Positions 12,025-32,986 of a stretch of DNA of 33,444 nt are shown here, piece after piece; position 1 is the stretch's first letter; each line of letters begins with the position of its first letter. The stretch spans positions 1 to 33,444 of IMG/VR virus record IMGVR_UViG_3300027142_000023. One strand, given 5' to 3'. The position numbers and the translations under genes are program-made. Source of the DNA: a virus. Below the pieces are notes generated by a model. That model ran no database searches. It saw only the letters and a program-made list of their open reading frames with translations, and had not been told where the DNA came from.

Positions 12025-12660
12025 ATGGAAAAAGTCGAAACTACTATTTTGAGAAATTTACTTTTCAATAATGATTATTGTAGAAAAGTATTACCTTTTA
12101 TTAAAAATGAATATTTTGAAAATCTTCACGAGAAAGTAGTTTTTGAAGAGATTTGTAAATTCATTGTTGCCTATGAACAACTAGCAACAAAAGAAGTTCT
12201 TTTGATTGAAACAGAAAAAAGAACTGATATTACAGAAGATACTTACAAAATTATTTGTGATTATATTTCTAAACTTGATGATGCACCAGCAGATAAACAG
12301 TGGTTGATAGATACTACTGAAAAGTGGTGTAAAGATCGAGCAATTTATCTTGCTCTTATGGAAAGTATTAAAATTGCTGACGGGCAAGATGAAAAGAAAT
12401 CTAGAGATTCCATTCCAACAATTTTACAAGAAGCACTTGCTATTGGATTTGATAGCCACATTGGACACGATTACCTAAAAGATTACCAAGAACGATATGA
12501 CTCTTATCACAGAAAAGAAGACAAAATCCCATTTGATTTGGAATATTTTAACAAAATTACCAAAGGGGGTCTTCCTAACAAAACTCTTAATATCGCACTT
12601 GCTGGTTGTGTTCATCCAGAAACCAAAGTTAAAATTAGGTTTAGGAAGTTAAAACTATAA
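12025..12660 (+). CDS. 41: gp41-like replicative helicase, N-terminal half fused to split N-intein
   Basis: 211 residues: 194 of helicase (N-terminal domain and linker, ending NKTLNIALAG) plus a 17-residue N-intein. DnaB-family gp41 unwinds DNA at the fork and recruits gp61 primase. The extein stops in the middle of the Walker A motif; the remaining TGVGKS is encoded at 14611 after the C-intein. Alone this half has no ATP site. An SD-like GAGGAG (12017-12022) precedes the ATG. It is the last gene of the gp43-uvsX-hydroxylase unit before the insertion. Joined halves give 461 residues, close to T4 gp41 (475), so nothing of the helicase seems lost. Confidence 0.92.
   Translation: MEKVETTILRNLLFNNDYCRKVLPFIKNEYFENLHEKVVFEEICKFIVAYEQLATKEVLLIETEKRTDITEDTYKIICDYISKLDDAPADKQWLIDTTEKWCKDRAIYLALMESIKIADGQDEKKSRDSIPTILQEALAIGFDSHIGHDYLKDYQERYDSYHRKEDKIPFDLEYFNKITKGGLPNKTLNIALAGCVHPETKVKIRFRKLKL
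12607..12657 (+). other. Split intein N-fragment in gp41 (17 aa)
   Basis: It starts at the Cys codon 12607 following ALAG and reads CVHPETKVKIRFRKLKL before the TAA. CVHPETKV is a standard intein block A with nucleophilic Cys1. A fragment this short places it in the atypically split class, where the N-intein is about 16-25 residues and the rest, including block B, is on the C-fragment. The class is known from phage metagenomes. Confidence 0.88.
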
Positions 12661-12663
12661 ATA
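12656..12663 (+). promoter_or_regulatory. T4-type late promoter inside gp41 N-half stop
   Basis: TATAAATA overlaps the TAA stop of the N-half and lies 22 nt before the ATG at 12686. Confidence 0.8.
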
Positions 12664-12685
12664 AAATTATAAAATAAAAAAAAAG

Positions 12686-13459
12686 ATGAACTCACAAGAA
12701 ATTCGTGCCCTTCAAGAAGCATATATGGAAGTTGTTGAAGGTGCCGAAGGAGGAAGATTTCAGTATAATCAGAGACACGGACGACCTTTAATAACTCCAG
12801 AATTATCACAAAGCAGAAGTAGTCAAGGAACTCTTGGTGGTGTTACTTATGTAAGAGGACCACAGAGATTACCAAAAAGTAAGCGCAAATACGACAGACA
12901 AGTATTATCAGGAGTTCGTGCCGCAAGTAAGCAAGAAAAGGAAAGAGCAAGGAAAAGAATGGGTATAACGGAAGACATTTACGACATCATCCTCTCACAC
13001 TTACTTGATGAAGGATATGCCGAAACCCCAGAAGCAGCAGAAGCAATTATGGTGAATATGAGTGAAGATTGGAGAGATGATATTATGGAGAAAGAAGATA
13101 GTGAATATGAAAAAGCATCTGATGCAGCATTAGATTCAAGATATGGATATGGTAGAGCATCTGGTGATAAGCGTTCTTTTGGTAGGGCAGCAAATCGTTC
13201 CTCTGCTGCTGCTGCTCTTCGTGCGATTAGAAGAGGATTAAGAAGTGGAAGTGGCACTTCAAGAGAAGCAGGTGCTGATGCAGTTCATCAGGGATGGGCA
13301 AAAACTGCGAGAACAAGCACAGACCAAACACCAGAAAAGAAAGCAAAAAGAGCAAAACTTGCAGATACTCCATACTCCCAACTTCCTGATGATGAGAAGG
13401 AAAAGGATAGAGTATCTTTTGATGCCGTAAGAGCAACTTATAACAGGAATAAAAGATGA
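12686..13459 (+). CDS. Putative internal/structural protein inserted between gp41 halves
   Basis: 257 residues, basic, rich in Arg/Ala/Ser/Lys. It begins MNSQEIRALQEAYMEVVEGA, an amphipathic helix with a possible gp21-type site (Leu-Gln-Glu). Residues 96-134 (EDIYDIILSHLLDEGYAETP onward to MSEDWRDDIME) form a helical module shared with two other late proteins in this window. No enzyme motif is seen. It has its own late promoter and a terminator after it. I call it a late virion or prohead protein by family resemblance only. Its place inside a fractured replication gene is unusual. Confidence 0.72.
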   Translation: MNSQEIRALQEAYMEVVEGAEGGRFQYNQRHGRPLITPELSQSRSSQGTLGGVTYVRGPQRLPKSKRKYDRQVLSGVRAASKQEKERARKRMGITEDIYDIILSHLLDEGYAETPEAAEAIMVNMSEDWRDDIMEKEDSEYEKASDAALDSRYGYGRASGDKRSFGRAANRSSAAAALRAIRRGLRSGSGTSREAGADAVHQGWAKTARTSTDQTPEKKAKRAKLADTPYSQLPDDEKEKDRVSFDAVRATYNRNKR

Positions 13460-13485
13460 TTTGATAAAATCATAAAATCTTTTTC

Positions 13486-13512
13486 AACCACTCACTTATT
13501 GAGTGGTTTTTT
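13486..13512 (+). terminator. Convergent terminator inside the gp41 fracture
   Basis: A perfect 9-bp stem AACCACTCA / TGAGTGGTT (13486-13494 and 13500-13508), 5-nt loop, T-run on the + strand. On the - strand the hairpin is followed by only a short A/T stretch, so it is mainly for the rightward gene, though it may help stop the leftward HNH transcript. Confidence 0.88.
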
Positions 13513-13532
13513 ATTCATATCAATTTTAACTA

Positions 13533-14195
13533 TTATTTTTTAACTTTAGAATTTGGTGCTGGTTCTCCAGTTCCAAATTTCCAACCCTCGTTTGACTTCA
13601 TATCAACATCTTCTGGAAGTATTCTTTTCCATCCTTTTGTTCCTGGTAAGTGCATTACCTTCTTACCTTTGTGTGCTTTTCCTCCAAGAGATGCTCTTTC
13701 TTGTCTTCCTTGATTGGATGCCCAGTAATTAAATTCTTTTGATGCTCTCTTCTTGCCTCCAAGAGATGCTCTTTCCTTTCTGCCTTCTTCTGTGCTCCAA
13801 TAATAAAAATTTTTAACTTTATCATTTAAATATTCTTGTTTTTGAGTTTCTATTCCTCTAATCATCCATTCTTTTCTTTCTTCTACTGGTGTTGAAAAGA
13901 AACCAAGTTGATTATCTCTACAAAACTCTCCTATTATTTTTCTGTGTTGAGGTGATAAGTTTGCTCCCAACATTTTCATAGATCTTAAATCATTTGGATT
14001 TTTGTAAATCTTCCAAAGTAAATAATGTGCTATGATATGTTCTCTAACATTCAAGTATGTAAGGTTGCAATCATCATCTGTTCCTCCCATATGTTTAGGA
14101 ACAATATGGTGTTCGTGTAGTCCTGAATATTTTTTATAGTTTTCTCTTCTTGACTTATTACCTTCACATAGGTTAGAATAGATACGATCAAACAT
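13533..14195 (-). CDS. HNH homing endonuclease, antisense inside the gp41 fracture
   Basis: 220 residues. The HNH motif is HEHHIVPKHMGGTDDDCNLT at about residues 27-46, followed by NVREHIIAHYLLWKIYKN, the usual zinc-less phage HNH layout. The C-terminal half has two copies of a FYYWSTEEGRKERASLGGK-like unit, probably DNA-binding, then GWKRI and GWKFG segments. It is transcribed opposite to gp41 from its own late promoter. It probably cleaves unfractured or intein-less gp41 alleles and so drives spread of the split locus, as proposed for fractured genes with nucleases in other phage data. That function is inferred. Confidence 0.9.
   Translation of the reverse strand: MFDRIYSNLCEGNKSRRENYKKYSGLHEHHIVPKHMGGTDDDCNLTYLNVREHIIAHYLLWKIYKNPNDLRSMKMLGANLSPQHRKIIGEFCRDNQLGFFSTPVEERKEWMIRGIETQKQEYLNDKVKNFYYWSTEEGRKERASLGGKKRASKEFNYWASNQGRQERASLGGKAHKGKKVMHLPGTKGWKRILPEDVDMKSNEGWKFGTGEPAPNSKVKK
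13681..13775 (-). repeat. 20-nt direct repeat in HNH gene (ERASLGG units)
   Basis: CCTCCAAGAGATGCTCTTTC occurs at 13681-13700 and 13756-13775 (+ strand), each encoding ERASLGG. The repeated DNA marks a duplicated binding module. Confidence 0.85.
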
Positions 14196-14223
14196 TCCCT
14201 GTCCCTGCTACTGCTAATACTAT

Positions 14224-14231
14224 TATTTATA
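14224..14231 (-). promoter_or_regulatory. T4-type late promoter for the HNH gene
   Basis: TATAAATA on the minus strand, 28 nt upstream of the HNH ATG; a CAGGGA SD (about 14196-14201) precedes that ATG. It lies only 4 nt from the divergent gp41 C-half start codon. Confidence 0.78.
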
Positions 14232-14235
14232 TAAA

Positions 14236-14610
14236 ATGTGGATTGAAAAAGAAACAACAATTGCTGAAATCAAAACATTACTTGATAATGGATATGAGGT
14301 AGAAGTTGATTCGCCTGATGGATATGTTCCAGTCAATTTCTTCATTAACAAAGGAATGTATGATGAATATGTTTTAAAGGTTGATGATGGAGAACCTGTG
14401 AGATGTAATGCTGACCATTTATTTGAAACATCTTTTGGGTGGATGAAAGCATCACACCTTTATGAAAAATATAAGACAAATCATTTTATAACTAAAAATG
14501 GTTATAAACTTGGAAGTGTCTTTAAGACAGGAAATCAAATACCTATTGTTGATATTAATGTAAATCATCCAAATCATAGGTATTATACTAATGGTGTTTC
14601 TTCTCACAAT
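14236..14610 (+). other. Split intein C-fragment in gp41 (125 aa)
   Basis: It runs from MWIEKETTIAEIK to TNGVSSHN, with penultimate His and terminal Asn at 14605-14610 and Thr as the +1 extein residue. Block B-like RCNADHLFETSFGW (about residues 54-67) supplies the conserved His. Block F/G is IPIVDINVNHPNHRYYTNGV followed by SSHN. No endonuclease domain is present within it. Confidence 0.9.
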
Positions 14611-15414
14611 ACAGGTGTAGGTAAATCCTTGTTTATGTGCCATGTGGCTAGCTCCGTGTTGCTCCAAGGACGGAACGTATTGTACATTACGCTTGAAATG
14701 GCAGAGGAGAAAATTGCTGAACGAATTGACGCAAATCTCTTAAATGTTAATATCAAAGATATTGAAACATTGCCAAAAGTAATGTTTGATACGAAAGTAA
14801 ATAATATTGCGAAGAAAACACAAGGAACTCTGATTATCAAAGAGTATCCAACTGCTTCGGCACACGCAGGTCATTTTAGAGCACTTCTTAATGAACTCTC
14901 TCTTAAGAAATCATTTAAACCTGATATTATTTTCATTGACTACCTTAATATTTGTGGGTCCTCAAGATATAAGAGTAATTTTTCAGTCAATTCTTACTCT
15001 TATGTCAAAGCAATTGCGGAAGAACTTCGTGGTCTTGCAGTTGAAGCAAATGTTCCAATTGTTTCCGCTACCCAGACTACTCGTAGTGGTTTTTCTAGCT
15101 CCGATCCTGACCTTACTGATACTAGTGAATCCTTTGGTCTTCCTGCTACTGCTGACCTTATGTTTGCCCTTATTAGCACAGAAGAGTTGGAGGGGTTGGG
15201 ACAGATTATGGTGAAACAATTGAAGAACCGTTATTCTTCAACTGATAAATATAAGAGGTTTGTTGTTGGTGTTGATAGAGAAAAAATGCGTCTCTATGAT
15301 TGCGAACAATCTGCACAAAAAGATATTATTAATTCTGGAAAAGATGAGGAATACGAATCACCAGAAAGAAATAGTGAATCAAAAACTAATAAATTTTCTG
15401 GATTTAAATTCTAA
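14236..15414 (+). CDS. 41: gp41-like replicative helicase, C-terminal half with split C-intein
   Basis: 392 residues: a 125-residue C-intein, then 267 of helicase. The extein opens TGVGKSLFMCHVASSVLLQG, completing Walker A. It continues with NVLYITLEMAEEKIAERIDA, Walker B in DIIFIDYLNICG, the SATQTTRSGF motif and the MVKQLKNRYSST segment of RecA/DnaB-fold helicases. The C-terminus is KTNKFSGFKF. After trans-splicing with the half ending at 12606 the helicase would be complete. There is no obvious SD before the ATG, and the + strand terminator at 13486 separates it from the N-half, so how it is transcribed is unclear. The stop overlaps the next ATG (TAATG). Confidence 0.93.
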   Translation: MWIEKETTIAEIKTLLDNGYEVEVDSPDGYVPVNFFINKGMYDEYVLKVDDGEPVRCNADHLFETSFGWMKASHLYEKYKTNHFITKNGYKLGSVFKTGNQIPIVDINVNHPNHRYYTNGVSSHNTGVGKSLFMCHVASSVLLQGRNVLYITLEMAEEKIAERIDANLLNVNIKDIETLPKVMFDTKVNNIAKKTQGTLIIKEYPTASAHAGHFRALLNELSLKKSFKPDIIFIDYLNICGSSRYKSNFSVNSYSYVKAIAEELRGLAVEANVPIVSATQTTRSGFSSSDPDLTDTSESFGLPATADLMFALISTEELEGLGQIMVKQLKNRYSSTDKYKRFVVGVDREKMRLYDCEQSAQKDIINSGKDEEYESPERNSESKTNKFSGFKF

Positions 15415-16127
15415 TGGGAATTATTTACTGTATTCATAATTTAACTACTGGTAAAAAATACATAGGACAAACTGTAGAAAAATTACAGAGAAGAATTCTT
15501 CGTCATTTTAGAACAATTAATGAAACTAAAATTAGTAGAGCAATACAAAAATATAGTAAATATAATTTTGTTTATGGTATACTTGAAGAAGTTGAAAATA
15601 TAAATCTATTAGATGAAAGGGAAAAATATTGGATTCAATATTATGATACTGTAAATAATGGATTTAATATCAAAGAAGGTGGTAAGTGTTCTAGAGGATT
15701 TAAACAATCACAAAGTTCCATAGAAAAAAGAAGGCAAAAACTTCTTGGTAAAACTTTAAGTGAAGAACATAAACAAAAATTAAGCAAAGCACATAAAGGA
15801 AAAGTTCTTTCAAAAGAAACAGTTGATAAAATGATTGTATATAAAACTGGAAGAAACTTGACTGAAAGTTGTAAAGAAAAAATTTCAAAGTCTCATTGTA
15901 AAAATACATATGAACTGGAAAATAAAAATGGAATGGTATTGATAATAAAAAATTTAGCAAAATTTTGTAGGGAAAATAATTTTTCTCAAAGTTATTTTAC
16001 TAGAATTTTAAAAGGGGAAAGAAAAACTTATAAAGGATGGAGCATAAAAAAACTTGACTCAGGACAAGAAGAAGAGTATACTTATGAAGAAGATAAAAAA
16101 AGTAAATTTTCAGGATTTAAATTTTAA
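15414..16127 (+). CDS. GIY-YIG homing endonuclease carrying a gp41-like C-terminal tail
   Basis: 237 residues. GIY-YIG appears as GIIYCIHNLTTGKKYIGQT at residues 2-20, with Arg at about 27 and Glu at about 71 in LLDEREKYWIQYYDT. NUMOD3-like repeats (LSEEHKQKLSKAHKGK) follow, then a NUMOD1-like end with YKGWSIKKL. The last 23 residues, starting DSGQEEEY and ending KSKFSGFKF, do not belong to the nuclease: they match the C-terminus of gp41 just upstream. The gene starts in a TAATG overlap with gp41, with no late promoter or hairpin of its own, so it is likely co-translated with the helicase C-half. Confidence 0.9.
   Translation: MGIIYCIHNLTTGKKYIGQTVEKLQRRILRHFRTINETKISRAIQKYSKYNFVYGILEEVENINLLDEREKYWIQYYDTVNNGFNIKEGGKCSRGFKQSQSSIEKRRQKLLGKTLSEEHKQKLSKAHKGKVLSKETVDKMIVYKTGRNLTESCKEKISKSHCKNTYELENKNGMVLIIKNLAKFCRENNFSQSYFTRILKGERKTYKGWSIKKLDSGQEEEYTYEEDKKSKFSGFKF
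16056..16124 (+). repeat. Divergent duplicate of the gp41 3' end fused to the GIY-YIG ORF
   Basis: These 23 codons match 15331-15411 of gp41: DSGQEEEY against NSGKDEEY and SKFSGFKF against NKFSGFKF. The last 25 nt before and including each stop (15390-15414 and 16103-16127) differ at only two bases. Confidence 0.85.
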
Positions 16128-17554: not shown

Positions 17555-18742
17555 ATGAAAAGTTTTGCTAGATTTATTAAAGAAGCAGTAGAAACACTTG
17601 CGTCTACTGAAGCAAAGAACCGCGGACTTAAAGGAAACGGTCATGGTGATTGGTATGATACTCAAGGAAATTTTGTAGCAAAAACTGTAGGTGGAAAGTT
17701 AAAATATTTCGGTCAAGGTGGTGCTGACGAACAACAGCAACAAGGAGAAAAGAAGAAGGCAACAGTAAAACAGAAACAGAAAGCACCACAACAAGTAGCA
17801 CAGCAGCAGCAAGCAGAACCAGAGCAAGTGAATGGTGTTGCTATTGTAATTGGAAGATTCAATCCACCATCCAAAAATCACGGAGCATTATTGAAAGCAG
17901 GATATTCTCAGGCAACTCGAAGAAGATTTGAGTTTAGAGTTTATCCAAGTCGTATTGAAGATGGAGCAACAAATCCACTCAATCCAGGATTGAAGATTTC
18001 TTATATGCAATCGATGTTCCCAGAGTATGCGGAGTATATTGTAGATAGTGATAATGCAAAAACTATTTTTGATGTTTTGGGTTCTGTGTATGATGATGGA
18101 TATACTGATGTTGTAATCATAACGGGACAAGATAGACTTGGTGAATTCCAAAGTTTAGTTCATAAAGGAGACGGACAGCAATATCAGTTCAATAATATTG
18201 AGGTAGTCCCATCTGGAATAAAAGACCCTGATAGTGATGTTGAAAGTCCTGGTTCTTCTGCGATGATGAGAACAGCAGCAGCAACAGGAGATTATGAAAG
18301 ATTTGCTACTGGACTTCCAGCAAATATGGATACCGCAGAGAAACAGGAAATGTTTAATACTGTTTCTCGTTCAATGAAAGTGAGTGAAGATACTGAAATC
18401 TGGAAGATTGCTCCGGAATTGGATTATGAGGGAATGAGATGGAATTATAAAAAGAATGGTTTATTTGATGTTGGTGCTTTGGTAGAAAATTTAAATAGTG
18501 GATTAGTTGGAAGAATTCTTCGTAGAGGAGCAAATCATTTAATTTGCGTAACGAAAGAAGGTGTGATGTTTAAGAGTTGGTTGAAAGATGTTCGTGAAGT
18601 TTATGAGGTTGGGACTTGTGAATACAGAGCACATACACAAAAGATGACACCAGGACAACCAGTAAATTCTTATACTGATGTTAAAATAAAACCAACAATG
18701 AAGAAAAATATAAATACCAGTAGGAAAAAAGTATCTAAGTAA
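17555..18742 (+). CDS. Nucleotidyltransferase-like protein with capsid-targeting-like N-terminus
   Basis: 395 residues. The N-terminus MKSFARFIKEAVETLAS strongly resembles T4 internal-protein targeting sequences, with a gp21-like Ile-Lys-Glu/Ala site at residues 8-11. A Gln-rich linker (about 57-90) leads to a cytidylyltransferase-like Rossmann domain: AIVIGRFNPPSKNHGALL from residue 96 (Gly100, Arg101, His109) and GSSAMMR (233-239) in place of the usual SSTxxR. The C-terminal module VGRILRRGANHLICVTKEGV and WLKDVREVYEVGTCEYR is frequent in T4-like cyanophage structural proteins. Only one His of the HxGH motif remains (SKNH), so activity is uncertain. Probably a late virion-associated protein. 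Confidence 0.78.
   Translation: MKSFARFIKEAVETLASTEAKNRGLKGNGHGDWYDTQGNFVAKTVGGKLKYFGQGGADEQQQQGEKKKATVKQKQKAPQQVAQQQQAEPEQVNGVAIVIGRFNPPSKNHGALLKAGYSQATRRRFEFRVYPSRIEDGATNPLNPGLKISYMQSMFPEYAEYIVDSDNAKTIFDVLGSVYDDGYTDVVIITGQDRLGEFQSLVHKGDGQQYQFNNIEVVPSGIKDPDSDVESPGSSAMMRTAAATGDYERFATGLPANMDTAEKQEMFNTVSRSMKVSEDTEIWKIAPELDYEGMRWNYKKNGLFDVGALVENLNSGLVGRILRRGANHLICVTKEGVMFKSWLKDVREVYEVGTCEYRAHTQKMTPGQPVNSYTDVKIKPTMKKNINTSRKKVSK
18709..18716 (+). promoter_or_regulatory. T4-type late promoter
   Basis: TATAAATA inside the 3' end of the preceding gene, 27 nt before the ATG at 18744. Confidence 0.75.
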
Positions 18743-22216: not shown

Positions 22217-23218
22217 ATGAGTTTTGTTGATTCCAAATACATCGGGCTGGTATCTTCCCGACTGGATAAGTTTGCTAAGAAAAAAGAAGGTCTTTATAAC
22301 TTTCGGTGCCCTTACTGCGGTGACAGTCAAAGGACAAAGAGTAAGGCAAGAGGATATATTTACCAATTAAAGAACGACCATAATTTTAAGTGTCATAATT
22401 GTGGAACTTCTAGAACATTTACAAACTTTCTCAAAGATTTAGATGTTGTTCTTTACGACCAGTATGTGATGGAAAGATATAAAGAAGGAACTACTGGAAA
22501 AAGGTCTCAAACAAAGAACCCAGAGTTTAAGTTTGAGAAACCAAATTTTTCAAAAAAGGCATTTGACCTGCCTACCATCGCAGAACTAAATAAAGAACAT
22601 TCTGCAAGAAAATACTTAGAAGATAGAAAAATACCTAACAACTATCTGTGTGAATTGTATTTCTGTGAAAAGTTTAAAGAATGGACCAACACGCAAAAAC
22701 ACACCTTTGATAAAGTAGAACGGGACGAACCACGAATTATTATTCCTTTAATCAATAAAGGAGAAATATTTGGATTTCAAGGTCGTAGTTTAAATAAAAA
22801 ATCAAAGGTGAAATACATTACAATTATTCTTGATGATACACATCCAAAAATTTACAATTTGGATAAACCAGACTACGACAAAATTGTTTATGTTGTTGAA
22901 GGACCAATTGATAGTATGTTTTTGGATAATTCAATTGCTATGGTTGGTGCAGACATCGATAAAATGTTTTTCATATCCAACTTTGCAACAGAATTTGTAA
23001 TGGTGTATGACAATGAAAAACGAAATAAACAGATCGTAGATAGAATGGAAAAAGCAATACAAATGCGATTTCCAATCGTCATTTGGCCGAATGACTTGAA
23101 AGAAAAGGATATTAATGATATGATCCTTTCAGGAATTGATGCCCCAAAAATCATCAAGGAAAATACTTATATGGGATTAGAAGCAAAAGCAAAACTTATT
23201 GGATGGAAACGAGTATGA
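22217..23218 (+). CDS. 61: gp61-like DNA primase
   Basis: 333 residues, matching T4 gp61 (342), which makes RNA primers with the gp41 helicase. An N-terminal zinc finger has Cys31 and Cys34 (CPYCGD) and Cys59 and Cys62 (CHNCGT). A TOPRIM core follows: VVEGPIDSMF with Glu228 and Gly229, SIAMVGAD, and MVYDNEKRNK as the acidic DxD-like loop. IWPNDLKEKDINDMI is the usual C-terminal primase motif. The start at 22217 has the expected SFVDSKYIGLVSSRLDKF beginning. The stop overlaps the nrdA ATG. Confidence 0.93.
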   Translation: MSFVDSKYIGLVSSRLDKFAKKKEGLYNFRCPYCGDSQRTKSKARGYIYQLKNDHNFKCHNCGTSRTFTNFLKDLDVVLYDQYVMERYKEGTTGKRSQTKNPEFKFEKPNFSKKAFDLPTIAELNKEHSARKYLEDRKIPNNYLCELYFCEKFKEWTNTQKHTFDKVERDEPRIIIPLINKGEIFGFQGRSLNKKSKVKYITIILDDTHPKIYNLDKPDYDKIVYVVEGPIDSMFLDNSIAMVGADIDKMFFISNFATEFVMVYDNEKRNKQIVDRMEKAIQMRFPIVIWPNDLKEKDINDMILSGIDAPKIIKENTYMGLEAKAKLIGWKRV

Positions 23219-24909
23219 GCAACGGTACAAAGGTAATTAAGAGAAGTGGTGATAATGAACCTCTTGATCTCAATAAACTTCACTTAATGGTTGAGGAGGC
23301 ATGTAGGGACCTCTCTGGTGTTTCTGCATCACAGGTCGAGATGCAATCTGGTATTCAATTCTATGATGGAATTACAACAGCAGAAATTCAGGAAATTTTA
23401 ATTCGTTCTGCATCTGATTTGATTGATTTGGAAAATCCAAATTATCAATTTGTTGCAGCAAGACTACTTCTGTTTTCGGTGAGAAAATCTTTGTATGGAA
23501 GAGTTCAAGATCATCCTACTTTTGTAGATCATATTAAGAAATGTGTTTTTGCTGGAGTATATGATTCAGAAATCTTGACTAACTATACAGAGGAAGAACT
23601 TAATCGTCTTGGTGGTTATATTAATCATAACCGTGATTATCTATTTACTTATGCTGGTCTTCGTCAAGTAGTTGATAAGTATCTTGTTCAAGACCGTAGT
23701 GCTGGGCAAGTATATGAAACTCCACAGTTCATGTATATGATGATTTCTGCGACTATTTTTGCTAGATATCCAAAAGAAACTAGAATTTCTTATGTCAAAC
23801 GATACTACGACGCAATCTCCAAACACAAAATCAACATTCCCACACCTATCATGGCAGGAGTGCGAACTCCACTTCGACAATTTGCTAGCTGTGTTCTTGT
23901 TGATGTTGATGACACCCTCGATAGCATCTTTAGTTCTGATATGGCTATCGGCAGGTATGTTGCACAAAGGGCGGGAATCGGCATCAACGCAGGTAGAATC
24001 CGTGGCATCAACGCTAAAATCAGAGGTGGAGAAGTTCAGCACACAGGTGTTGTCCCATTCCTCAAGAAGTTTGAAGCAACTGTCCGATGCTGCACTCAAA
24101 ATGGCATCAGAGGTGGATCAGCAACTGTCCACTTCCCAATCTGGCACCAAGAAATCGAAGATATCCTAGTACTAAAAAATAACAAAGGAACCGAAGACAA
24201 CCGTGTTCGTAAGTTAGACTACTCTATCCAAATCTCTAAACTGTTCTATGAACGATTCATCAAGAATGAAGAGGTCTCTCTCTTCTCCCCACACGCAGTT
24301 CCTGGTCTGTATGATGCTTTTGGAACTGATGCTTTTGACGAGTTATATGTACGTTACGAACGAGATGAGTCTATTCCTAGAAAGACTATCGGAGCTCAAG
24401 AACTCTTTCTGGACCTCCTGAAAGAACGTGCTGAAACTGGTCGTATTTACATTATGAATATCGACCATTGCAATTCTCACTCATCCTTTATGGATAAGGT
24501 TGAGATGAGTAATCTTTGTGTTTCTGGTGATACTAAAATCAAAATTAGATATCCAGAACCCATTTATAATGATATTGGTGAAGTATCTGATTGGAGAGTT
24601 TGTGAGATTGAAATTCATATTGAAGATTTAGAAATTTACCTTTCTGATAGGATAGCTATAATTGCATGTCTTTGTGATGATGTTCCTCAAATAGAAGTTC
24701 TTTCTTATAATATAGAAACTAATCAACAAGAATGGGCACCTATTACAGCATTTGCCGAAACATCACCAAAAGCAAAGGTAATGAAAATTACTGATGAAGA
24801 AAGTGGTAAGAGTATTGTAGTTACACCAGAGCATCAAGTATTCACAAAAAATCGTGGATATGTAGTGGCAAAAGACCTAACCGAAACCGATGAGTTGGTA
24901 ATTAACTAA
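23215..24909 (+). CDS. nrdA: Ribonucleotide reductase large subunit NrdA, N-terminal half with split N-intein
   Basis: 564 residues from ATG 23215 (overlapping the gp61 TGA): 434 of NrdA and a 130-residue N-intein. The extein begins with an ATP-cone-like segment (TKVIKRSGDNEPLDLNKLHL) and carries ASCVLVDVDD, with the likely first redox Cys, then AGIGINAGRIRGINAKIRGG. It ends HSSFMDKVEMSNL, one residue before the catalytic Cys. An upstream in-frame ATG at 23203 would add four residues inside gp61. NrdA with NrdB makes dNTPs for phage replication. This half alone lacks the thiyl-radical Cys and cannot be active. Confidence 0.94.
   Translation: MSNGTKVIKRSGDNEPLDLNKLHLMVEEACRDLSGVSASQVEMQSGIQFYDGITTAEIQEILIRSASDLIDLENPNYQFVAARLLLFSVRKSLYGRVQDHPTFVDHIKKCVFAGVYDSEILTNYTEEELNRLGGYINHNRDYLFTYAGLRQVVDKYLVQDRSAGQVYETPQFMYMMISATIFARYPKETRISYVKRYYDAISKHKINIPTPIMAGVRTPLRQFASCVLVDVDDTLDSIFSSDMAIGRYVAQRAGIGINAGRIRGINAKIRGGEVQHTGVVPFLKKFEATVRCCTQNGIRGGSATVHFPIWHQEIEDILVLKNNKGTEDNRVRKLDYSIQISKLFYERFIKNEEVSLFSPHAVPGLYDAFGTDAFDELYVRYERDESIPRKTIGAQELFLDLLKERAETGRIYIMNIDHCNSHSSFMDKVEMSNLCVSGDTKIKIRYPEPIYNDIGEVSDWRVCEIEIHIEDLEIYLSDRIAIIACLCDDVPQIEVLSYNIETNQQEWAPITAFAETSPKAKVMKITDEESGKSIVVTPEHQVFTKNRGYVVAKDLTETDELVIN
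24517..24906 (+). other. Split intein N-fragment in NrdA (130 aa)
   Basis: It begins at Cys codon 24517 (CVSGDTKIKIRY, block A). Block B is KSIVVTPEHQVFTKNRGYVV, with the Thr-x-x-His, then AKDLTETDELVIN before the TAA. This is the conventional N-intein architecture. Confidence 0.92.
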
Positions 24910-24912
24910 TAG

Positions 24913-24968
24913 GATAGGGAGTGTAATTTCTACATTTTATAAATAGTTATGAGATTACACTTCCTATT
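24913..24968 (+). promoter_or_regulatory. Hairpin enclosing a late promoter, 5' of GIY-YIG gene
   Basis: The arms 24914-24927 and 24954-24967 pair over 14 bp with one G-U. The loop contains TATAAATA (24938-24945). Transcription from the late box should start near 24951, omitting the 5' arm, while read-through RNA from nrdA would form the stem and cover the bases immediately before the ATG at 24969. Confidence 0.82.
24938..24945 (+). promoter_or_regulatory. T4-type late promoter in hairpin loop
   Basis: Perfect TATAAATA, 23 nt before the ATG at 24969. Confidence 0.83.
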
Positions 24969-25640
24969 ATGAAAACCTATATTGTATATAAAATTACGAA
25001 TAAGAAAAACGGAAAGTCTTATATAGGAAAATCTGAATATCCATTAGAGCATCGTTGGAATCGTCATTTATCATCAGCAAGAAATGGTTCTAAATTTAGA
25101 TTTCATTCTGCTATTAGAAAATATGGGGAAGATTGTTGGGACTTATCTGTGATTGAAACTTACCAAACTGAAGATGAAAACTTTATTAATGAAAAGGAAA
25201 CTCACTTCATTAAACTCTTTGAAAGTGATACTAAAGGTTATAATGCTACTTCGGGGGGAACTGGTGGATGGATGCTTCCAAGATGCTCACAGGAGGTTCA
25301 GGAAGAGTGGAGAAATGGTATTTCCATAAGAACTATTGGTTACAATAATCCAAACTATTCTGGATACACTGATGAGGAACTCATAGAAGTAGGTGTAAAG
25401 TTTGCTAAAAAATATGGATTTATTGGTGGAAGGAAAAGAATAGTTGAGTTTGCTCTTAGTGAATTAAATATTAAGTTTCCAAAACATTTCTCCAAAAATA
25501 GATTTGACGGAAACCATCAAAACTTTTATAAATCTATTGAAGAACAAACTGGATTGGTGTATAATCCTTATTATAGAGACGAAACTCAAAGAAAACTTGC
25601 TAAACAACTTTTAGAACAAAATAGGAGAAAAAAATGCTAA
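24969..25640 (+). CDS. GIY-YIG homing endonuclease within the nrdA fracture
   Basis: 223 residues. The GIY-YIG core is KTYIVYKITNKKNGKSYIGK at residues 2-21, with Arg at about 29 in HRWNRHLSSA and the catalytic-type Glu in FINEKETHFIKLFES (about 75-82). The glycine-rich turn YNATSGGTGGWM follows, and the C-terminal half is an unrecognised, probably DNA-binding, domain (GGRKRIVEFALSELNIKFPK). It lies exactly between the NrdA N-intein and C-intein halves and overlaps the C-half start by 7 nt. It probably targets uninterrupted nrdA. Translation is likely restricted to late transcripts by the upstream hairpin. Confidence 0.92.
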   Translation: MKTYIVYKITNKKNGKSYIGKSEYPLEHRWNRHLSSARNGSKFRFHSAIRKYGEDCWDLSVIETYQTEDENFINEKETHFIKLFESDTKGYNATSGGTGGWMLPRCSQEVQEEWRNGISIRTIGYNNPNYSGYTDEELIEVGVKFAKKYGFIGGRKRIVEFALSELNIKFPKHFSKNRFDGNHQNFYKSIEEQTGLVYNPYYRDETQRKLAKQLLEQNRRKKC

Positions 25641-25732
25641 AGATTGAATATCTTGAAGAAGAAATCCCAGTTTATGATATTACAGTAGAAGGAACTCATA
25701 ATTTCTTCGCAAATGATATTCTAGTCCATAAT
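25634..25732 (+). other. Split intein C-fragment in NrdA (33 aa)
   Basis: MLKIEYLEEEIPVYDITVEG continues THNFFANDILVHN, which is blocks F and G with terminal His-Asn at 25727-25732 and Cys as the +1 residue. A textbook C-intein of 33 residues. Confidence 0.93.
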
Positions 25733-26728
25733 TGCCAGGAAATTACTCTTCCAACAAAACCACTTCAACACATTGATGATCCCAATGGGGAGATTGCACT
25801 TTGTATTCTTTCTGCTGTTAATGTTGGCAAAGTAAAGTCTGATGATGAATTTGAAGATCTTTGTAATCTTTCTGTTCGTGGTTTGGAAGAATTGATTGAT
25901 TATCAAAACTATCCTGTAGTTGCTGCAGAGATTGGAACCAAAGCACGTAGATCTTTGGGTGTTGGGTACATTGGTTTGGCACACTATCTTGCTAAACTTG
26001 GTTTTAATTACGATACTCAAGAAGCTTGGGATGCGGTTCATCAATTGTCTGAATCGTTCCAATATTTCCTTCTAAAAGCATCAAATGAAGTTGCTAAAGA
26101 AAAGGGTGCCTGTGAATATTTTAATCGCACTAAGTATTCGCAAGGTATTCTTCCAATTGATACTTACAAGAAAGATGTGGATGAAGTTTCTTCTGTTGCT
26201 CTTCAGCACGATTGGGAAGCGTTAAGGCAATCAATCAAAGAGTTTGGTCTCAGGCACTCCACTCTTACGGCACAGATGCCATCTGAATCCAGTTCTGTCG
26301 TCTCCAATGCCACAAACGGCATCGAACCACCTCGTGGATTTTTATCAATTAAGAAATCTAAAAAAGGTCCTCTCAAACAAATTGTTCCACAATATCAACA
26401 TCTTAAAAACAACTATACGTTGCTTTGGGATATGCCTAGCAATCGTGGTTATATTAATATTGTTGCAGTTATGCAGAAATTCTTCGATCAAGCAATTTCT
26501 GGAAACTGGTCGTATAATCCAGAAAATTATACCAATAATGAAGTTCCTGTTAGCGTAATGGCACAAGATATGCTTACTTGTTTTAAACTTGGGCATAAGA
26601 CGGCATATTATCAAAATACATATGACAATAAGACCGACGAAATTAAGGAGGAAAAAACTAATATTGACGATTTGGTTAAAGAACTTTTAGAAGGGGGGGA
26701 AGACGACTGTGAATCCTGTAAAATTTAG
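25634..26728 (+). CDS. nrdA: Ribonucleotide reductase NrdA, C-terminal half with split C-intein
   Basis: 364 residues: a 33-residue C-intein, then 331 of NrdA beginning CQEITLPTKPLQH, whose first Cys is the radical-forming cysteine (E. coli Cys439 equivalent) followed by the conserved Glu. Other landmarks are MPSESSSVVSNATNGIEPPR, the substrate-phosphate loop, and the C-terminal redox pair CESC. Total spliced length is 765, like E. coli NrdA (761). A good SD (AGGAG, 25623-25627) sits 6 nt before the ATG, inside the GIY-YIG gene. The end overlaps the nrdB region upstream of its start. Confidence 0.94.
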   Translation: MLKIEYLEEEIPVYDITVEGTHNFFANDILVHNCQEITLPTKPLQHIDDPNGEIALCILSAVNVGKVKSDDEFEDLCNLSVRGLEELIDYQNYPVVAAEIGTKARRSLGVGYIGLAHYLAKLGFNYDTQEAWDAVHQLSESFQYFLLKASNEVAKEKGACEYFNRTKYSQGILPIDTYKKDVDEVSSVALQHDWEALRQSIKEFGLRHSTLTAQMPSESSSVVSNATNGIEPPRGFLSIKKSKKGPLKQIVPQYQHLKNNYTLLWDMPSNRGYINIVAVMQKFFDQAISGNWSYNPENYTNNEVPVSVMAQDMLTCFKLGHKTAYYQNTYDNKTDEIKEEKTNIDDLVKELLEGGEDDCESCKI

Positions 26729-27898: not shown

Positions 27899-27952
27899 AC
27901 AAGAAACTGAAATATAATATTATATAAATAGTATTAGAGTTCAGTTTCTTGT
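27899..27952 (+). promoter_or_regulatory. Hairpin enclosing a late promoter, 3' of nrdB
   Basis: A perfect 13-bp inverted repeat ACAAGAAACTGAA / TTCAGTTTCTTGT (27899-27911 and 27940-27952) surrounds a 28-nt loop with TATAAATA. A late transcript would start near 27936, without the 5' arm. Read-through RNA from nrdB would fold and occlude the start region at 27955. Confidence 0.85.
27923..27930 (+). promoter_or_regulatory. T4-type late promoter in hairpin loop
   Basis: Perfect TATAAATA, 24 nt before the ATG at 27955. Confidence 0.83.
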
Positions 27953-27954
27953 TT

Positions 27955-28689
27955 ATGTATTATGTTTATGAATTAATAGACCCAAGAGTCAATCTGCCTT
28001 TTTATGTTGGAAAGGGAAAAGATGATCGGGTTTATTTTCATTTGTCCGAAAAAACAAGAGCAAAAAGTGATAATGAAAGAAAATTTAATAAAATACAAAA
28101 AATAAGAAAGGAGGGGTATGAACCAGAAGTCAAAATAGTTGAATATTTTGAAAATGAAAATGATGCTTATTTTTATGAAGAATCATTAATACAAAAATAT
28201 GGAAGAATACGATATGATGAGGGTGGAATATTAACAAATATTTGTGAAAGCTCAAGACCACCAAATCATAGAGGAAAAACATACCAAGAAATATATGGTG
28301 ATAAGTGGGAAGACCAAATAGAAAAAAGAAGAAATTTGCAACTTTCTGTTGGTGGATATGGACCTAAAAAACATAGTGAAGAAACAAAAAGGAAAATAAG
28401 TAAAAAGGTTGCGGGAGAGAATAATCCAAGTTATGGTATTCCTTGTAGTGAAGAAAGAAAAAGAAAAATAAGTGAAAAGGCAAAGGAAAGATATGCTGCA
28501 GGTTTTAAACCACCATCTGCAAAAATTTGGAAACTCACATCTCCAGAAAATAAAGAATATGTTATTGTTGGTGGATTAAAGGAGTTTTGTAAATCTCAAA
28601 ATATCTCATATGCTACTATGAGTGCCGCAATTAAGTATGATAGAAGAGGTCCAAGAAGAAATGGGTGGAGTATTGAAGAGAAAATTTAG
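27955..28689 (+). CDS. GIY-YIG homing endonuclease with NUMOD3 repeats, 3' of nrdB
   Basis: 244 residues from ATG 27955; the in-frame TTG at 27949 lies inside the hairpin arm and is rejected. The core is YYVYELIDPRVNLPFYVGKG at residues 2-21, with Arg at about 25 and a Glu-rich DAYFYEESLIQKYG helix. Two NUMOD3-like repeats follow (HSEETKRKISKKVAG, CSEERKRKISEKAKE). A NUMOD1-like end has VIVGGLKEFCKSQNISYATM and NGWSIEEKI. The 3' end overlaps the next gene by 29 nt. Late expression is expected from the hairpin arrangement. Likely target: the nrdB 3' region of related phages. Confidence 0.9.
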   Translation: MYYVYELIDPRVNLPFYVGKGKDDRVYFHLSEKTRAKSDNERKFNKIQKIRKEGYEPEVKIVEYFENENDAYFYEESLIQKYGRIRYDEGGILTNICESSRPPNHRGKTYQEIYGDKWEDQIEKRRNLQLSVGGYGPKKHSEETKRKISKKVAGENNPSYGIPCSEERKRKISEKAKERYAAGFKPPSAKIWKLTSPENKEYVIVGGLKEFCKSQNISYATMSAAIKYDRRGPRRNGWSIEEKI

Positions 28690-29077: not shown

Positions 29078-29101
29078 GGGGTTACGACCCCTCTTTTTTT
29101 T
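29076..29101 (+). terminator. Terminator after the nrd region
   Basis: A 7-bp stem GAGGGGT / ACCCCTC (29076-29082 and 29087-29093) with a 4-nt loop and an eight-T run, running directly into a late promoter. Confidence 0.9.
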
Positions 29102-29108
29102 ATAAATA
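29101..29108 (+). promoter_or_regulatory. T4-type late promoter
   Basis: TATAAATA adjoining the terminator T-run, 22 nt before the ATG at 29131. Confidence 0.85.
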
Positions 29109-29130: not shown

Positions 29131-30723
29131 ATGTCTGGAATTTCTAAGTTCAAAAGAATTTACAGTGAGGGTGTTGCAGCAGAACATCCAGACGTTGCGG
29201 GACAACCAGAATTTGCAAGTAAAGCAGATAAAGAAATTGCTCGTAGAAGAGCAGCAAGAGCAAAGAAAGCAGGACCACAACTTCCAAGTTTTGTTGCGTC
29301 AGTAAAGAAAGAAGAAACTGAACTTGATGAAGAAAAACGTCCATTTCCTTTTGAAAAAGTAGAAGCAAAAAAAGAAAAAGTAAAAAAAGGTTCTCTATAT
29401 GCTAGAGACAAAGGGGATTCTTCTCCAGTCAGTGATTCTGAAATGGAAGCAACCAGAAAATTTAACAAAATGAGTGTAGTTAGTGCTGCTGAAACTAGAA
29501 AAAAACAAAAAGCAGATAGAAACGAAGAGTTTGAACTTGATGAAAAGATTGATGTGGGTGCTGATGCTGGTGCGACAATCAGTGATTTCGTTCATTCAAA
29601 AAGCAAAACTTTCAAGGGTGATAGCAAAAAGCAAAGAATTAAGAGAGCACTTGGTGCTTATTATGCGGCACAAAGAGAAGAAACAGAAAATATTTACAAC
29701 TATGTAATTGAAACTTTGGTTGCTGCAGATTATGCAGAGAGTTATGAAACTGCTGAAAATATGTTCGAACATATGAGTAGTGAATTTGTAGCAGTTATTC
29801 TTGAAGAGTATATTGAAGAAGCAAAACGTTCAAGAACTGAAAGAAGAGCAAAAAATGCTGGAAAGAAAGGATATAATAAAGAAGGAAAACCTGTTCCCAA
29901 AGTTAGCAAAACACACGTTATACATGATGTGGATGATAATGTCGCAGACCAAAGACATCCAGATGCTGCTAAAATTGATTTACACAAAAAGGACTCAGGT
30001 TCCTATAAACACGTTAAAGCAATGACCCCCAGTGAATTTGCCCATACCCCACTTGAACCCAAACATGAATATGGATTTGATGAATTTAGAGATACAGATA
30101 AATTCAAAAAAACTACTAAAAAAACAAAAGTAGCTGGAATGGGAGATAGTCCAAGAAGACCCGCAAAAAAATCTGTTGTTACTGCTCGTGGGGGATCTGC
30201 ATTTGGAAGTAATAAACCTAGCACTCCTATGGATGACCCCGGATCATTTGCGAAGGATTTGAGGGACAGAATTGGAATAAGAGGTCTGAAAAGAAAAGAT
30301 GTTCATTTTACTGGTGGAATGAGTAAAGGACCAAATAAAGGTCTTTCTGGTCCTAAAAAAAAGGGTAAATTAGTTTCAAAAATTGTAGACCCAAGTGATA
30401 GGAAAGAAATAACAACAGATGATCACCTTGGTAATACAAGAGCTATGGCTGCTGCCGCAAGTGCTGCTGCACCCCAGGCTAAAGTTGTAGCATATCAATC
30501 AAGACCTGCTACAAGAAAACCAAAAGGAAAAGGAAAAGTTGGAGATATAGTTCCAAAAAGAGTTGGTAAGGAAAATAAACCAGGAGATACTAATATAGGA
30601 ATAAGAGCTAACTCAGGTGCTCCAAAATCTACTAAACAAACACAAAGAGCACGTAAAAAAGCAAGAAGAGGTATGGGAGAAGAGATGTCTTCTTATGAAT
30701 ACTGGAAACAGTTTGTTGATTGA
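29131..30723 (+). CDS. Putative internal virion protein with embedded HAD-like domain
   Basis: 530 residues, basic. The N-terminus MSGISKFKRIYSEGVAAEHP is targeting-like. Helical module: residues 186-228 (ENIYNYVIETLVAADYAESY ... MSSEFVAVILEEYIE), shared with two other late proteins. Residues about 260-450 look like a HAD phosphatase fold: motif I DVDDN at 266-270, MTPSEFAHTPLEPKHEYGFD then EFRD, motif II TAR at 351-353, Lys-rich motif III, motif IV TDDH at 429-432. The C-terminal end is Lys/Arg-rich and finishes SSYEYWKQFVD. Whether the HAD domain is active is unknown; motif I has Asn where Thr is usual. Own late promoter. Confidence 0.75.
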   Translation: MSGISKFKRIYSEGVAAEHPDVAGQPEFASKADKEIARRRAARAKKAGPQLPSFVASVKKEETELDEEKRPFPFEKVEAKKEKVKKGSLYARDKGDSSPVSDSEMEATRKFNKMSVVSAAETRKKQKADRNEEFELDEKIDVGADAGATISDFVHSKSKTFKGDSKKQRIKRALGAYYAAQREETENIYNYVIETLVAADYAESYETAENMFEHMSSEFVAVILEEYIEEAKRSRTERRAKNAGKKGYNKEGKPVPKVSKTHVIHDVDDNVADQRHPDAAKIDLHKKDSGSYKHVKAMTPSEFAHTPLEPKHEYGFDEFRDTDKFKKTTKKTKVAGMGDSPRRPAKKSVVTARGGSAFGSNKPSTPMDDPGSFAKDLRDRIGIRGLKRKDVHFTGGMSKGPNKGLSGPKKKGKLVSKIVDPSDRKEITTDDHLGNTRAMAAAASAAAPQAKVVAYQSRPATRKPKGKGKVGDIVPKRVGKENKPGDTNIGIRANSGAPKSTKQTQRARKKARRGMGEEMSSYEYWKQFVD

Positions 30724-30725
30724 TT

Positions 30726-31310
30726 ATGAAAACATTTAAACAGTTTTGTATCGAAGCATACCAAATACAAGAACTTTTTGGGTTTGGTGAAACCCCAAAA
30801 CCAAAACCTTCCAATAAAGTTTTAGCTTATAAGAATTATCAATCAGGTGTTTTGGATAAAGATACTGGTAAATTCACTCAAAGAACACATAGTGATGAGG
30901 AGCAACAAAGATATGGATGGAAACCAGTAAAGGTAAGTTCTTATAGTAAAGCAGATACACCAGGGCCAAAAACTGCTAGTGGGCACAAATTTGATGATAA
31001 TCAGAGATTAGTTGCTGTTCCTTATAAGTACAAAGAGAAGGAAGTACCAAAAGGAGTGTGGAAAGGTACTCCATCTACACCTTTTGGTACTAAAATGGAC
31101 CTCACAACAAAACCTATGGGAACAGCAACAAAGGTTGTTAAAACTTCAGTTCAAGATACTGGTAATTTTGGAAGAGCAGGAGATACTAATAAAGAAGTTA
31201 AGATGGATTTGAGTTTGAGAACAGCAAAAGATTTAGCACCAGTCTCTACAGCAAATGAATTTGGAAAAAGAATGGTATATGCTAAGGTTTCACCATCTGC
31301 GAGTAAATAA
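30726..31310 (+). CDS. RlpA/3D-like barrel protein with capsid-targeting-like N-terminus
   Basis: 194 residues from ATG 30726, 2 nt after the previous stop. The N-terminus MKTFKQFCIEAYQIQELFG is very close to T4 IPIII (MKTYQEFIAEA). The remainder fits a double-psi beta-barrel as in RlpA/3D-domain lytic transglycosylases. The landmarks are VSSYSKADTPGPKTASGHKF (Ala-Ser-Gly at 84-86), TPFGTKMDL (Phe-Gly-Thr from 120), VQDTGNFGRAG (Asp144-Thr-Gly) and VKMDLSLRTAKDLA (Asp161-Leu-Ser). In the family the Asp of DTG or the barrel Asp is catalytic. A virion-packaged peptidoglycan-acting protein is a reasonable but unproven reading. Confidence 0.68.
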   Translation: MKTFKQFCIEAYQIQELFGFGETPKPKPSNKVLAYKNYQSGVLDKDTGKFTQRTHSDEEQQRYGWKPVKVSSYSKADTPGPKTASGHKFDDNQRLVAVPYKYKEKEVPKGVWKGTPSTPFGTKMDLTTKPMGTATKVVKTSVQDTGNFGRAGDTNKEVKMDLSLRTAKDLAPVSTANEFGKRMVYAKVSPSASK

Positions 31311-31357: not shown

Positions 31358-32986
31358 ATGAATAGAAAAGATTTGGACGCCTTGAATGAGTTGTATTTGG
31401 GTGTTTATAGTGGGGAGCAGTTGAATGAAGGTCCACTTACACCAGATCAAATTAAATACAGAAATGAACGTGCTGGATTAGGGGTAGTAAGTAGAGGTGG
31501 TAAATTTGTAGCAACGGGAAAAGTCGATCCAAATTTGACTAGCGATTGGGAATGGATGACCAGTAGTCAAGCAGGCAAAAGGCAACAACTAAGAGCTCAG
31601 AAACTTGCTGCTGACTTGAATAAAAAACAACAAGAAGTAAGAATATCAAGAGCACAAAATGCTGCTATTGCAGCAGCAGATAAGGCAGAAAAAGCAAAAG
31701 CAGCACAATCACAAAGACCAGCAGCAGGTTCAGGTTCAACACCTCCACCAAGACCAGCATCGTCTGCTCCAGTTCTTTCAAAGAAAGACGGAGTAGAAGG
31801 AACAGGAGTTGGTGCTAATTTTAAAGCAAGAGCATTTACTGCCACAGAGAAGTCCCGTTATGCAAGTGTTGCCGCACAAAATGCAGCAAGGAATTCTGCA
31901 TCATCGGCACCAAAACCCCCAACACCAGCAATTGGAAAGTTAGGAAACACTTCATTTGAAAGAAGAACACCAACTTCTGCTGAACTTAAAGCAGCACAAG
32001 GAGAAAGAGCAAGACAAAAATCTGCTGGAGAAAATACTAGTACAAAACAGAATTCAGAAAAGGCACTTCAAGCAGCACAGAAGACCAATCTTCCTACAAC
32101 TGGACCAACTTCTGCAACCCCTGATTTGGGAAGTATAGGTAGAGATCTAGCACGAGCAAACACAGTACAAAATTTGAATAGAGCACCCGCAGGTTCTGCG
32201 GCTGCTAAAGCATTACCAGTAAAACCAGCACCAGCACCTACACCTTCACAGATTGCAGGTGCTTCTCAAGGAATTGAACCAAAACCTATAAATAATACAA
32301 AGACTAAACCAATACAAATGAAACCAGAATCTTACGAATGGCCTTCTGCAAAAACAATTAGAGATATTGCAGGTGCTTATGCTTCAATCTACGAAGCAAA
32401 GAAAAAAGACCAAGACCAAGATGGTGATAATGACTTTGCAGATGTAAGAATTGCAAGAATGATTGCATCTGGAATGTCTAAGGCAGAAGCAATCGCAGCA
32501 GTTAGAAATAAGTCATATAATGAAGAAGTTGAGATTGATGAAGCAACTGCGATGGCTAAGAGAGGTCATGATGAAACCGAAATTCGTAATAAGATTGCAA
32601 AATCAACAGGTGGAGGAGAGGCTGCTGATAGAGCAACTGCATTAGCAGATAGGCAAACTTTTAGAGGTAGTGGATCGGCAAGAGATAGATTTGCAAGAAC
32701 ACAGAGAGGTGATTTCCGTAAGACAACTTCTTCAAATCCTGGTCTTCACGGATATGCTCACCAGTCCAATGACCCTGCCGTAAAAGCAAAGCAGGCAGCA
32801 AGAGGAGCACAAAGAGGTGTTCTGACCCCTAGAGAGAAAAAGCAACTCAATAGAGAGTCATATGAAGCATATGAGTTTGTAGCATCATATCTTCTTGAAA
32901 ATAATTTTGCATCAACAGTTGAAGATGCAAATGCAATTATCAACAATATGAGTGAAGGTTGGTTCAACCAAATTATAGAAGGATAA
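31358..32986 (+). CDS. Putative internal virion protein with EF-hand-like loop
   Basis: 542 residues, Ala/Pro/Ser/Lys-rich. The N-terminus MNRKDLDALNELYLGVYSGE continues QLNEG, a possible gp21-type cleavage site (Leu-Asn-Glu/Gly). A long low-complexity middle (about 90-320) probably lacks fixed structure. ETYEWPSAKTIRDIAGAYAS-like helix residues precede a loop DQDQDGDNDFAD at 351-362, followed by VRIARMIASGMSKAEAIAAV, a module common in cyanophage late proteins. The C-terminus (502-541; YEAYEFVASYLLENNFASTV ... MSEGWFNQIIEG) is the helical module shared with two other late genes here. Function unknown. Confidence 0.75.
   Translation: MNRKDLDALNELYLGVYSGEQLNEGPLTPDQIKYRNERAGLGVVSRGGKFVATGKVDPNLTSDWEWMTSSQAGKRQQLRAQKLAADLNKKQQEVRISRAQNAAIAAADKAEKAKAAQSQRPAAGSGSTPPPRPASSAPVLSKKDGVEGTGVGANFKARAFTATEKSRYASVAAQNAARNSASSAPKPPTPAIGKLGNTSFERRTPTSAELKAAQGERARQKSAGENTSTKQNSEKALQAAQKTNLPTTGPTSATPDLGSIGRDLARANTVQNLNRAPAGSAAAKALPVKPAPAPTPSQIAGASQGIEPKPINNTKTKPIQMKPESYEWPSAKTIRDIAGAYASIYEAKKKDQDQDGDNDFADVRIARMIASGMSKAEAIAAVRNKSYNEEVEIDEATAMAKRGHDETEIRNKIAKSTGGGEAADRATALADRQTFRGSGSARDRFARTQRGDFRKTTSSNPGLHGYAHQSNDPAVKAKQAARGAQRGVLTPREKKQLNRESYEAYEFVASYLLENNFASTVEDANAIINNMSEGWFNQIIEG

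Follow-up and report, generated by a model that had tools for sequence, protein, structure and literature searches.

Why would a T4-like cyanophage place a peptide of the kind that directs proteins into phage heads in front of a barrel of the kind found in cell-wall enzymes? The question is raised by one gene in a 33.4-kb window (the whole stretch of DNA analysed, 33,444 nt, from IMG/VR record IMGVR_UViG_3300027142_000023), whose source is a T4-like cyanophage according to its virus record. A sequence-only reading of the window had noted a capsid-targeting-like leader ahead of an RlpA-type barrel, and had proposed head packaging and ejection as a new route for wall remodelling or superinfection control. 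T4-like cyanophages are among the most abundant viruses in water and, to our knowledge, almost nothing has been described of what cyanophages carry in their heads, and little of what most T4-type internal proteins do. A tagged protein whose enzyme fold can be recognised offers a cargo open to direct test.

The gene and its relatives

The 194-aa ORF, from the ATG at 30726 to the stop at 31310, is a real gene as judged from the ORF call and translation in the window, and its ATG lies 2 nt past the stop of the preceding gene. Its parts are:

30726..31310, + strand: target gene (194 aa), comprising leader, post-leader module and RlpA-type double-psi barrel
30726..30755, + strand: capsid-targeting-like leader MKTFKQFCIE, residues 1-10, with F4 and F7; E10 is a possible first cut
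30765..30773, + strand: displaced prohead-protease-type site IQE, residues 14-16, with a predicted cut after E16
30816..30920, + strand: conserved post-leader module VLAYKNY...RYGW, residues 31-65, present in L023 without the barrel
30921..31295, + strand: double-psi beta-barrel, residues 66-190, from structure prediction and profile alignment

Relatives were collected by scanning IMG/VR twice, which gave 24 and then 119, with 80 retained; together with the annotated phages S-PRM1 and DSL-LC03 they represent about 50 distinct proteins, and both the conservation counts and the structure alignment use 45 full-length relatives. A pattern scan of a bacterial and archaeal genome collection returned zero relatives. 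The ORF, the motif series and the leader noted by the sequence-only reading were all borne out by the sequence, the relatives and the profiles. All ten of the 13 close pairs with enough changes for dN/dS to be usable give values of 0.09-0.32, a range that shows purifying selection on the gene; the nearest pair, the window protein and L004, differs by only four changes and is uninformative in this respect. The predicted mature protein is ~20 kDa, with a pI of ~9.8 in the window and at least 9.8 in 45/45 members, and neither a signal peptide nor a hydrophobic or membrane segment was found in any of the 45. One relative (L053:8001-8051) has a target frame that stops after 17 codons while the remainder matches the family, reflecting either a frame error in sequencing or decay.

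The leader and its predicted processing

In the T4 genome, IPI begins with MKTFKEFTSTTTPVSTITEA, and the window leader MKTFKQFCIEA matches both MKTFKEF of IPI and MKTYQEFIAEA of IPII and IPIII. The capsid-targeting peptides of T4 are 10-19 residues long; targeting depends on residues 4 and 7 and processing on residues 8 and 10, such that an Asp at position 10 blocks processing and leaves targeting intact (PMC9026906). In the target family, position 4 is F or Y and position 7 is F in 45/45 members, and the 45 residues at position 10 comprise 22 D, 19 E and 4 Q. The motif [ILV]-x-E occupies positions 8-10 in 8/45, in five of which the leader runs straight into the domain, and 36 of the 37 relatives that lack it there carry an [ILVC]-x-E shifted to 13-16. 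By sequence match, a protease-type site [ILVC]-x-E, ending at residue 10 or shifted to 15-16, is thus present in 44/45; the window protein has both C-I-E at 8-10 and I-Q-E at 14-16. These leader counts are drawn from kin sequences that are not independent, and they describe a pattern rather than a probability.

The T4 internal proteins IPI, IPII and IPIII share with the target family an N-terminal targeting peptide in which residue 4 is aromatic and residue 7 is Phe, and the small basic mature protein (the T4 proteins are basic and about 8-20 kDa; PMC9026906); by sequence match, the target family also has a candidate for their protease site, whose Glu is at 10 or displaced, as in IPI (ITE at 17-19). 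They differ in that the cargo of the target is a double-psi barrel of a wall-enzyme clan, its gene lies mostly beside gp23, and its packaging is a prediction. Sequence, genomic context and T4 precedent nevertheless give good support to the capsid-targeting reading of the leader, and the predicted packaging of the target protein in the head is well supported with it.

The fold of the barrel

Single-protein sequence searches of Pfam, PHROGs and PDB gave nothing reliable, and the window protein has no match to Pfam DPBB_1. AlphaFold2, supplied with the 45-sequence alignment, returned a model with pLDDT 86.8, in which residues 31-190 are mostly above 90 and the leader is a low-confidence helix. 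Foldseek matched the model to the P. aeruginosa RlpA-like protein PA4485 (4avr, E 3.4e-6) and to a baseplate chain of cyanophage A-1(L) (8kea_A, E 3.2e-6), as well as to expansins, kiwellins, cerato-platanin-like proteins and, in BFVD, phage RlpA models. The predicted fold is an RlpA/expansin/GH45-type double-psi barrel, so that AlphaFold2 and Foldseek agree with the barrel first proposed from motifs.

The order of those motifs (TASG at 83-86, PFGTKMDL at 119-126, VQDTG at 142-146, VKMDLS at 158-163), which had been likened to that of transglycosylase barrels, was confirmed by profile comparisons that align the same motifs: a phage RlpA set matches the family at E 2.8e-7, and the A-1(L) hub at E 2e-6 over hub residues 293-372. 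The hub scores 46, against at most 22 for shuffled controls, and E. coli RlpA scores 25, against at most 21. PHROG 7930 ('lipoprotein precursor') matches 10/45 members, with a best E of 2.9e-4, and Pfam PF03330 (DPBB_1) matches 0/45 above its curated 28.8 bits, the best E being 0.041. MltA was rejected as nearest kin, E. coli MltA scoring 12.2, the same as shuffled sequence. An IgA protease fragment (E 0.27), a single PDB match obtained with a small alignment, was dismissed as chance, and TBPIP, RS4NT, Lipase_C and similar weak Pfam matches were dismissed because they are scattered, sub-threshold and at odds with the predicted fold.

Candidate active-site residues

30972..30983, + strand: TASG motif; T83, A84 and G86 invariant in the 45-member alignment
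31017..31019, + strand: Val98, at the place of the His of RlpA AAHP (AVP in the window), from the alignment
31155..31157, + strand: Asp144, aligned with the Asp of RlpA NDRGP, from profile alignment
31206..31208, + strand: Asp161, aligned with the Asp of RlpA DLS, from profile alignment

Asp144 and Asp161, which the sequence-only reading had singled out and numbered correctly, are invariant in 45/45 members together with G146, T83, A84 and G86, and both are kept at identities down to about 50%. The two outcomes that the sequence-only reading had named as refuting it, a fold other than a double-psi barrel and Asp residues that vary among homologues, were both checked and neither was seen. They align with the two barrel Asp residues of RlpA and of the A-1(L) hub. 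In P. aeruginosa RlpA, D168 has been named the catalytic Asp, while E. coli RlpA is reported to be without activity (PMC9712689). In the E. coli sequence a Ser occupies residue 11 after the Asp of DRG, a place taken in other RlpA proteins by the Asp of DLS; from this spacing we infer that the position of D161, and of the E. coli Ser, would be that of P. aeruginosa D168. The endoglucanase domain of the A-1(L) hub (residues 266-430) lyses Anabaena cells, and changes to its conserved catalytic residues reduce activity or expression (PMC10966104). The aligned hub residues 293-372 fall within this domain if equal numbering is assumed, the deposited gene being shorter than the published hub.

Catalysis by the barrel is likely, although E. 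coli RlpA indicates that barrels of this type can be non-catalytic. Val98 stands in for the RlpA His, conservation in the target family does not extend to the E and D that follow TASG, and the DPBB_1 cut-off is missed; we therefore term the domain an RlpA-clan barrel and not RlpA.

Comparison with wall-acting proteins

RlpA shares with the target the barrel fold, the motif order and both barrel Asp residues; the target differs in falling below the Pfam cut-off, in having Val for His, in lacking a signal peptide, lipobox and SPOR domain, and, in many members of the family, in an insertion ahead of PFGTK. The A-1(L) gp15 endoglucanase is likewise a homologous, phage-borne barrel with both Asp residues aligned, and it acts on a cyanobacterial wall; it belongs to a large tail hub and keeps the His, whereas the target is a separate, leader-bearing protein. 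Phage DSL-LC03 carries, in addition to the target family, a stand-alone RlpA (WJZ47928.1) whose barrel has both Asp residues, but this protein has no leader, retains the AAHP His, passes the Pfam cut-off and is encoded amid small genes distant from the head cluster. A separate RlpA gene is present in at least two target-family genomes (DSL-LC03 and the genome of L037), and S-PRM1 carries an annotated tail lysozyme, so the target barrel would be an additional wall-acting protein. Stand-alone canonical RlpA genes (L102, L103) were seen in 2/5 phage records searched, and have 241 relatives in IMG/VR.

T7 gp16 resembles what is proposed for the target in being head-internal; it has a transglycosylase domain and is ejected at entry. 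It belongs to a podovirus, has a different transglycosylase fold with a catalytic Glu, is large and membrane-spanning, and has no targeting peptide of the target's kind; conversely, the predicted fold and a segment scan show neither a gp16-type transglycosylase domain nor a membrane-spanning ejectosome region in the target. As a head-internal, ejected transglycosylase, gp16 counts against the view that wall-acting proteins are otherwise only on the tail or made as lysins (PMC8954989). The principle is therefore already known, and the proposed new route is not wholly new; what would be new is the variant, a small separate enzyme with a T4-type tag, and the route would be new for T4-type internal proteins.

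Gene neighbourhood and predicted late expression

In relatives with enough flanking sequence, the usual order is sheath, tube, portal, protease, scaffold, major capsid (gp23), target, gp3-like, uvsY and uvsW, while in the window lineage and some others the target lies behind nrdA-nrdB, between further unassigned genes. The features near the target in the window are:

29078..29108, + strand: terminator-like hairpin (GGGGTTACGACCCC and a T-run), then a T4-type late promoter core, TATAAATA, at 29101
29131..30723, + strand: upstream gene, ending 2 nt short of the target ATG
31358..32986, + strand: downstream neighbour of the same cluster, with LNE/G near its N-terminus

The late promoter core T[CA]TAAATA occurs no more than 60 nt upstream of the target in 23/43 distinct regions, against about 1% expected, and is located 17-28 nt ahead of the start, often directly after a terminator hairpin. 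The major capsid gene, taken as a positive control, has it in 2/26 and is uninformative, a result that transcription from promoters further upstream would presumably explain. In the window the core precedes the upstream gene and not the target itself, and the two genes are probably co-transcribed; a late-promoter-like AATAAATA lies in the gap ahead of the downstream neighbour. In one relative (L006:2466-4511) the barrel is fused in frame behind the SYYEYWKEFID end of the upstream gene, which replaces its own leader. The fusion partner is a larger protein with a phosphatase-like DMDETLF motif.

A helical-looking module of ~38 residues (Y..V...L.E.GFA......A..I...MSE.W...II) recurs in window genes 12686-13459, 29131-30723 and 31358-32986 and in L006, and in L057, L058 and L097 makes up a stand-alone 52-aa ORF that follows the capsid gene and lies just upstream of the target; it is possibly a shared head-cluster element.

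The leader on other cargo

The leader is modular: it is joined to unrelated cargo at six loci (L019-L024), one of which (L023) has the leader and the post-leader module with the barrel absent. These other-cargo proteins sit at the same two places as the target, the nrdB and gp23-uvsW loci, which suggests that the two loci are exchangeable cargo sites. Contig 3300025732_000023 carries both a barrel gene (L059) and an other-cargo leader gene (L024). The window itself encodes a second leader protein:

17555..18742, + strand: MKSFARFIKEA leader with a cytidyltransferase domain, T4-GC190 family

The T4-GC190 cytidyltransferase family has been found in S-SM1 virions (PMC3037559), and its S-SM1 member begins with MKKFSAFLNEA, so that it offers a separate, indirect line on virion location. 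In the papers searched, no virion proteomics of a target-carrying phage was found.

Possible functions of the target protein

We give about an even chance to the explanation that the target is a T4-type internal head protein with an RlpA/GH45-type peptidoglycan-cleaving barrel, ejected with the DNA and acting on the wall at entry. Its expression would be late, in most relatives as part of the head cluster, and its leader would dock it in the prohead core; a gp21-type protease would cut after E16 or E10, freeing a protein of ~20 kDa and pI ~9.8 within the DNA-filled head. This protein may then exit with the DNA via the tail, reach the periplasm as the phage enters and act there on the host wall through D161 together with D144. 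Since the protein has no signal peptide, a wall function requires either ejection or lysis. T4 internal proteins go to the cytoplasm and not to the wall, which counts against wall action, and with an annotated tail lysozyme in S-PRM1 it is not obvious why another enzyme for entry would be required. The more particular proposal of a tag-loaded, soluble RlpA/GH45-type head enzyme released into the periplasm, with the nrdB and gp23 loci as exchangeable cargo sites, we hold tentatively, at somewhat short of even. If wall activity is borne out, delivery of a wall enzyme from the head would extend from T7 to contractile-tailed phages, and the leader would be of help in predicting further injected proteins. 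We found nothing in support of superinfection control.

The packaged barrel could instead be non-catalytic, binding DNA, glycan or capsid and serving as core filler, condenser or, once injected into the cytoplasm like T4 internal proteins, host-takeover factor. A pI of about 10 in all 45 members, the many invariant residues outside the barrel in the post-leader module, the missing RlpA His and the precedent of E. coli RlpA as a structural, inactive barrel (PMC9712689) are all consistent with such a role, but the retention in 45/45 of both Asp residues, one of them missing from inactive E. coli RlpA, and the presence of an active wall-cutting domain in one of the two best structural matches (PMC10966104) lead us to consider it rather unlikely.

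Wall action could also come at the end of infection, the enzyme building up in the cytoplasm and degrading the wall at lysis, with the leader incidental or sequestering a fraction of the protein. The late promoter fits this, as does the role in lysis proposed for an RlpA-like gene of cyanophage PA-SR01 (PMC10286775); we nonetheless judge it improbable given a leader with the T4 targeting residues in 45/45 full-length members, the lack of a signal peptide, the position of the gene within the head module and the separate RlpA gene elsewhere in at least two of the genomes. Still less probable is a place in the tail or neck, where the barrel would serve penetration as in the A-1(L) hub: this would account for the similarity in structure to the A-1(L) baseplate chain and for the gp3-like tail completion gene that comes next, but the protein has no tail-assembly domain, is small, very basic and soluble, and bears a leader of the prohead-core type.

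Other features of the window

Two genes of the window, for a gp41-like helicase (12025-15414) and for NrdA (23203-26728), are both broken into a pair of ORFs with intein-like ends (..AGCVHPETKVKI / ..YYTNGVSSHNTG and ..NLCVSGDTKIKI / ..FFANDILVHNC) and endonuclease-like ORFs between the halves; they resemble the split inteins known from gp41 and NrdA of phages. Inspection by eye also identified GIY-YIG/homing-endonuclease-like ORFs at 6720-7292, 15414-16127, 24969-25640 and 27949-28689.
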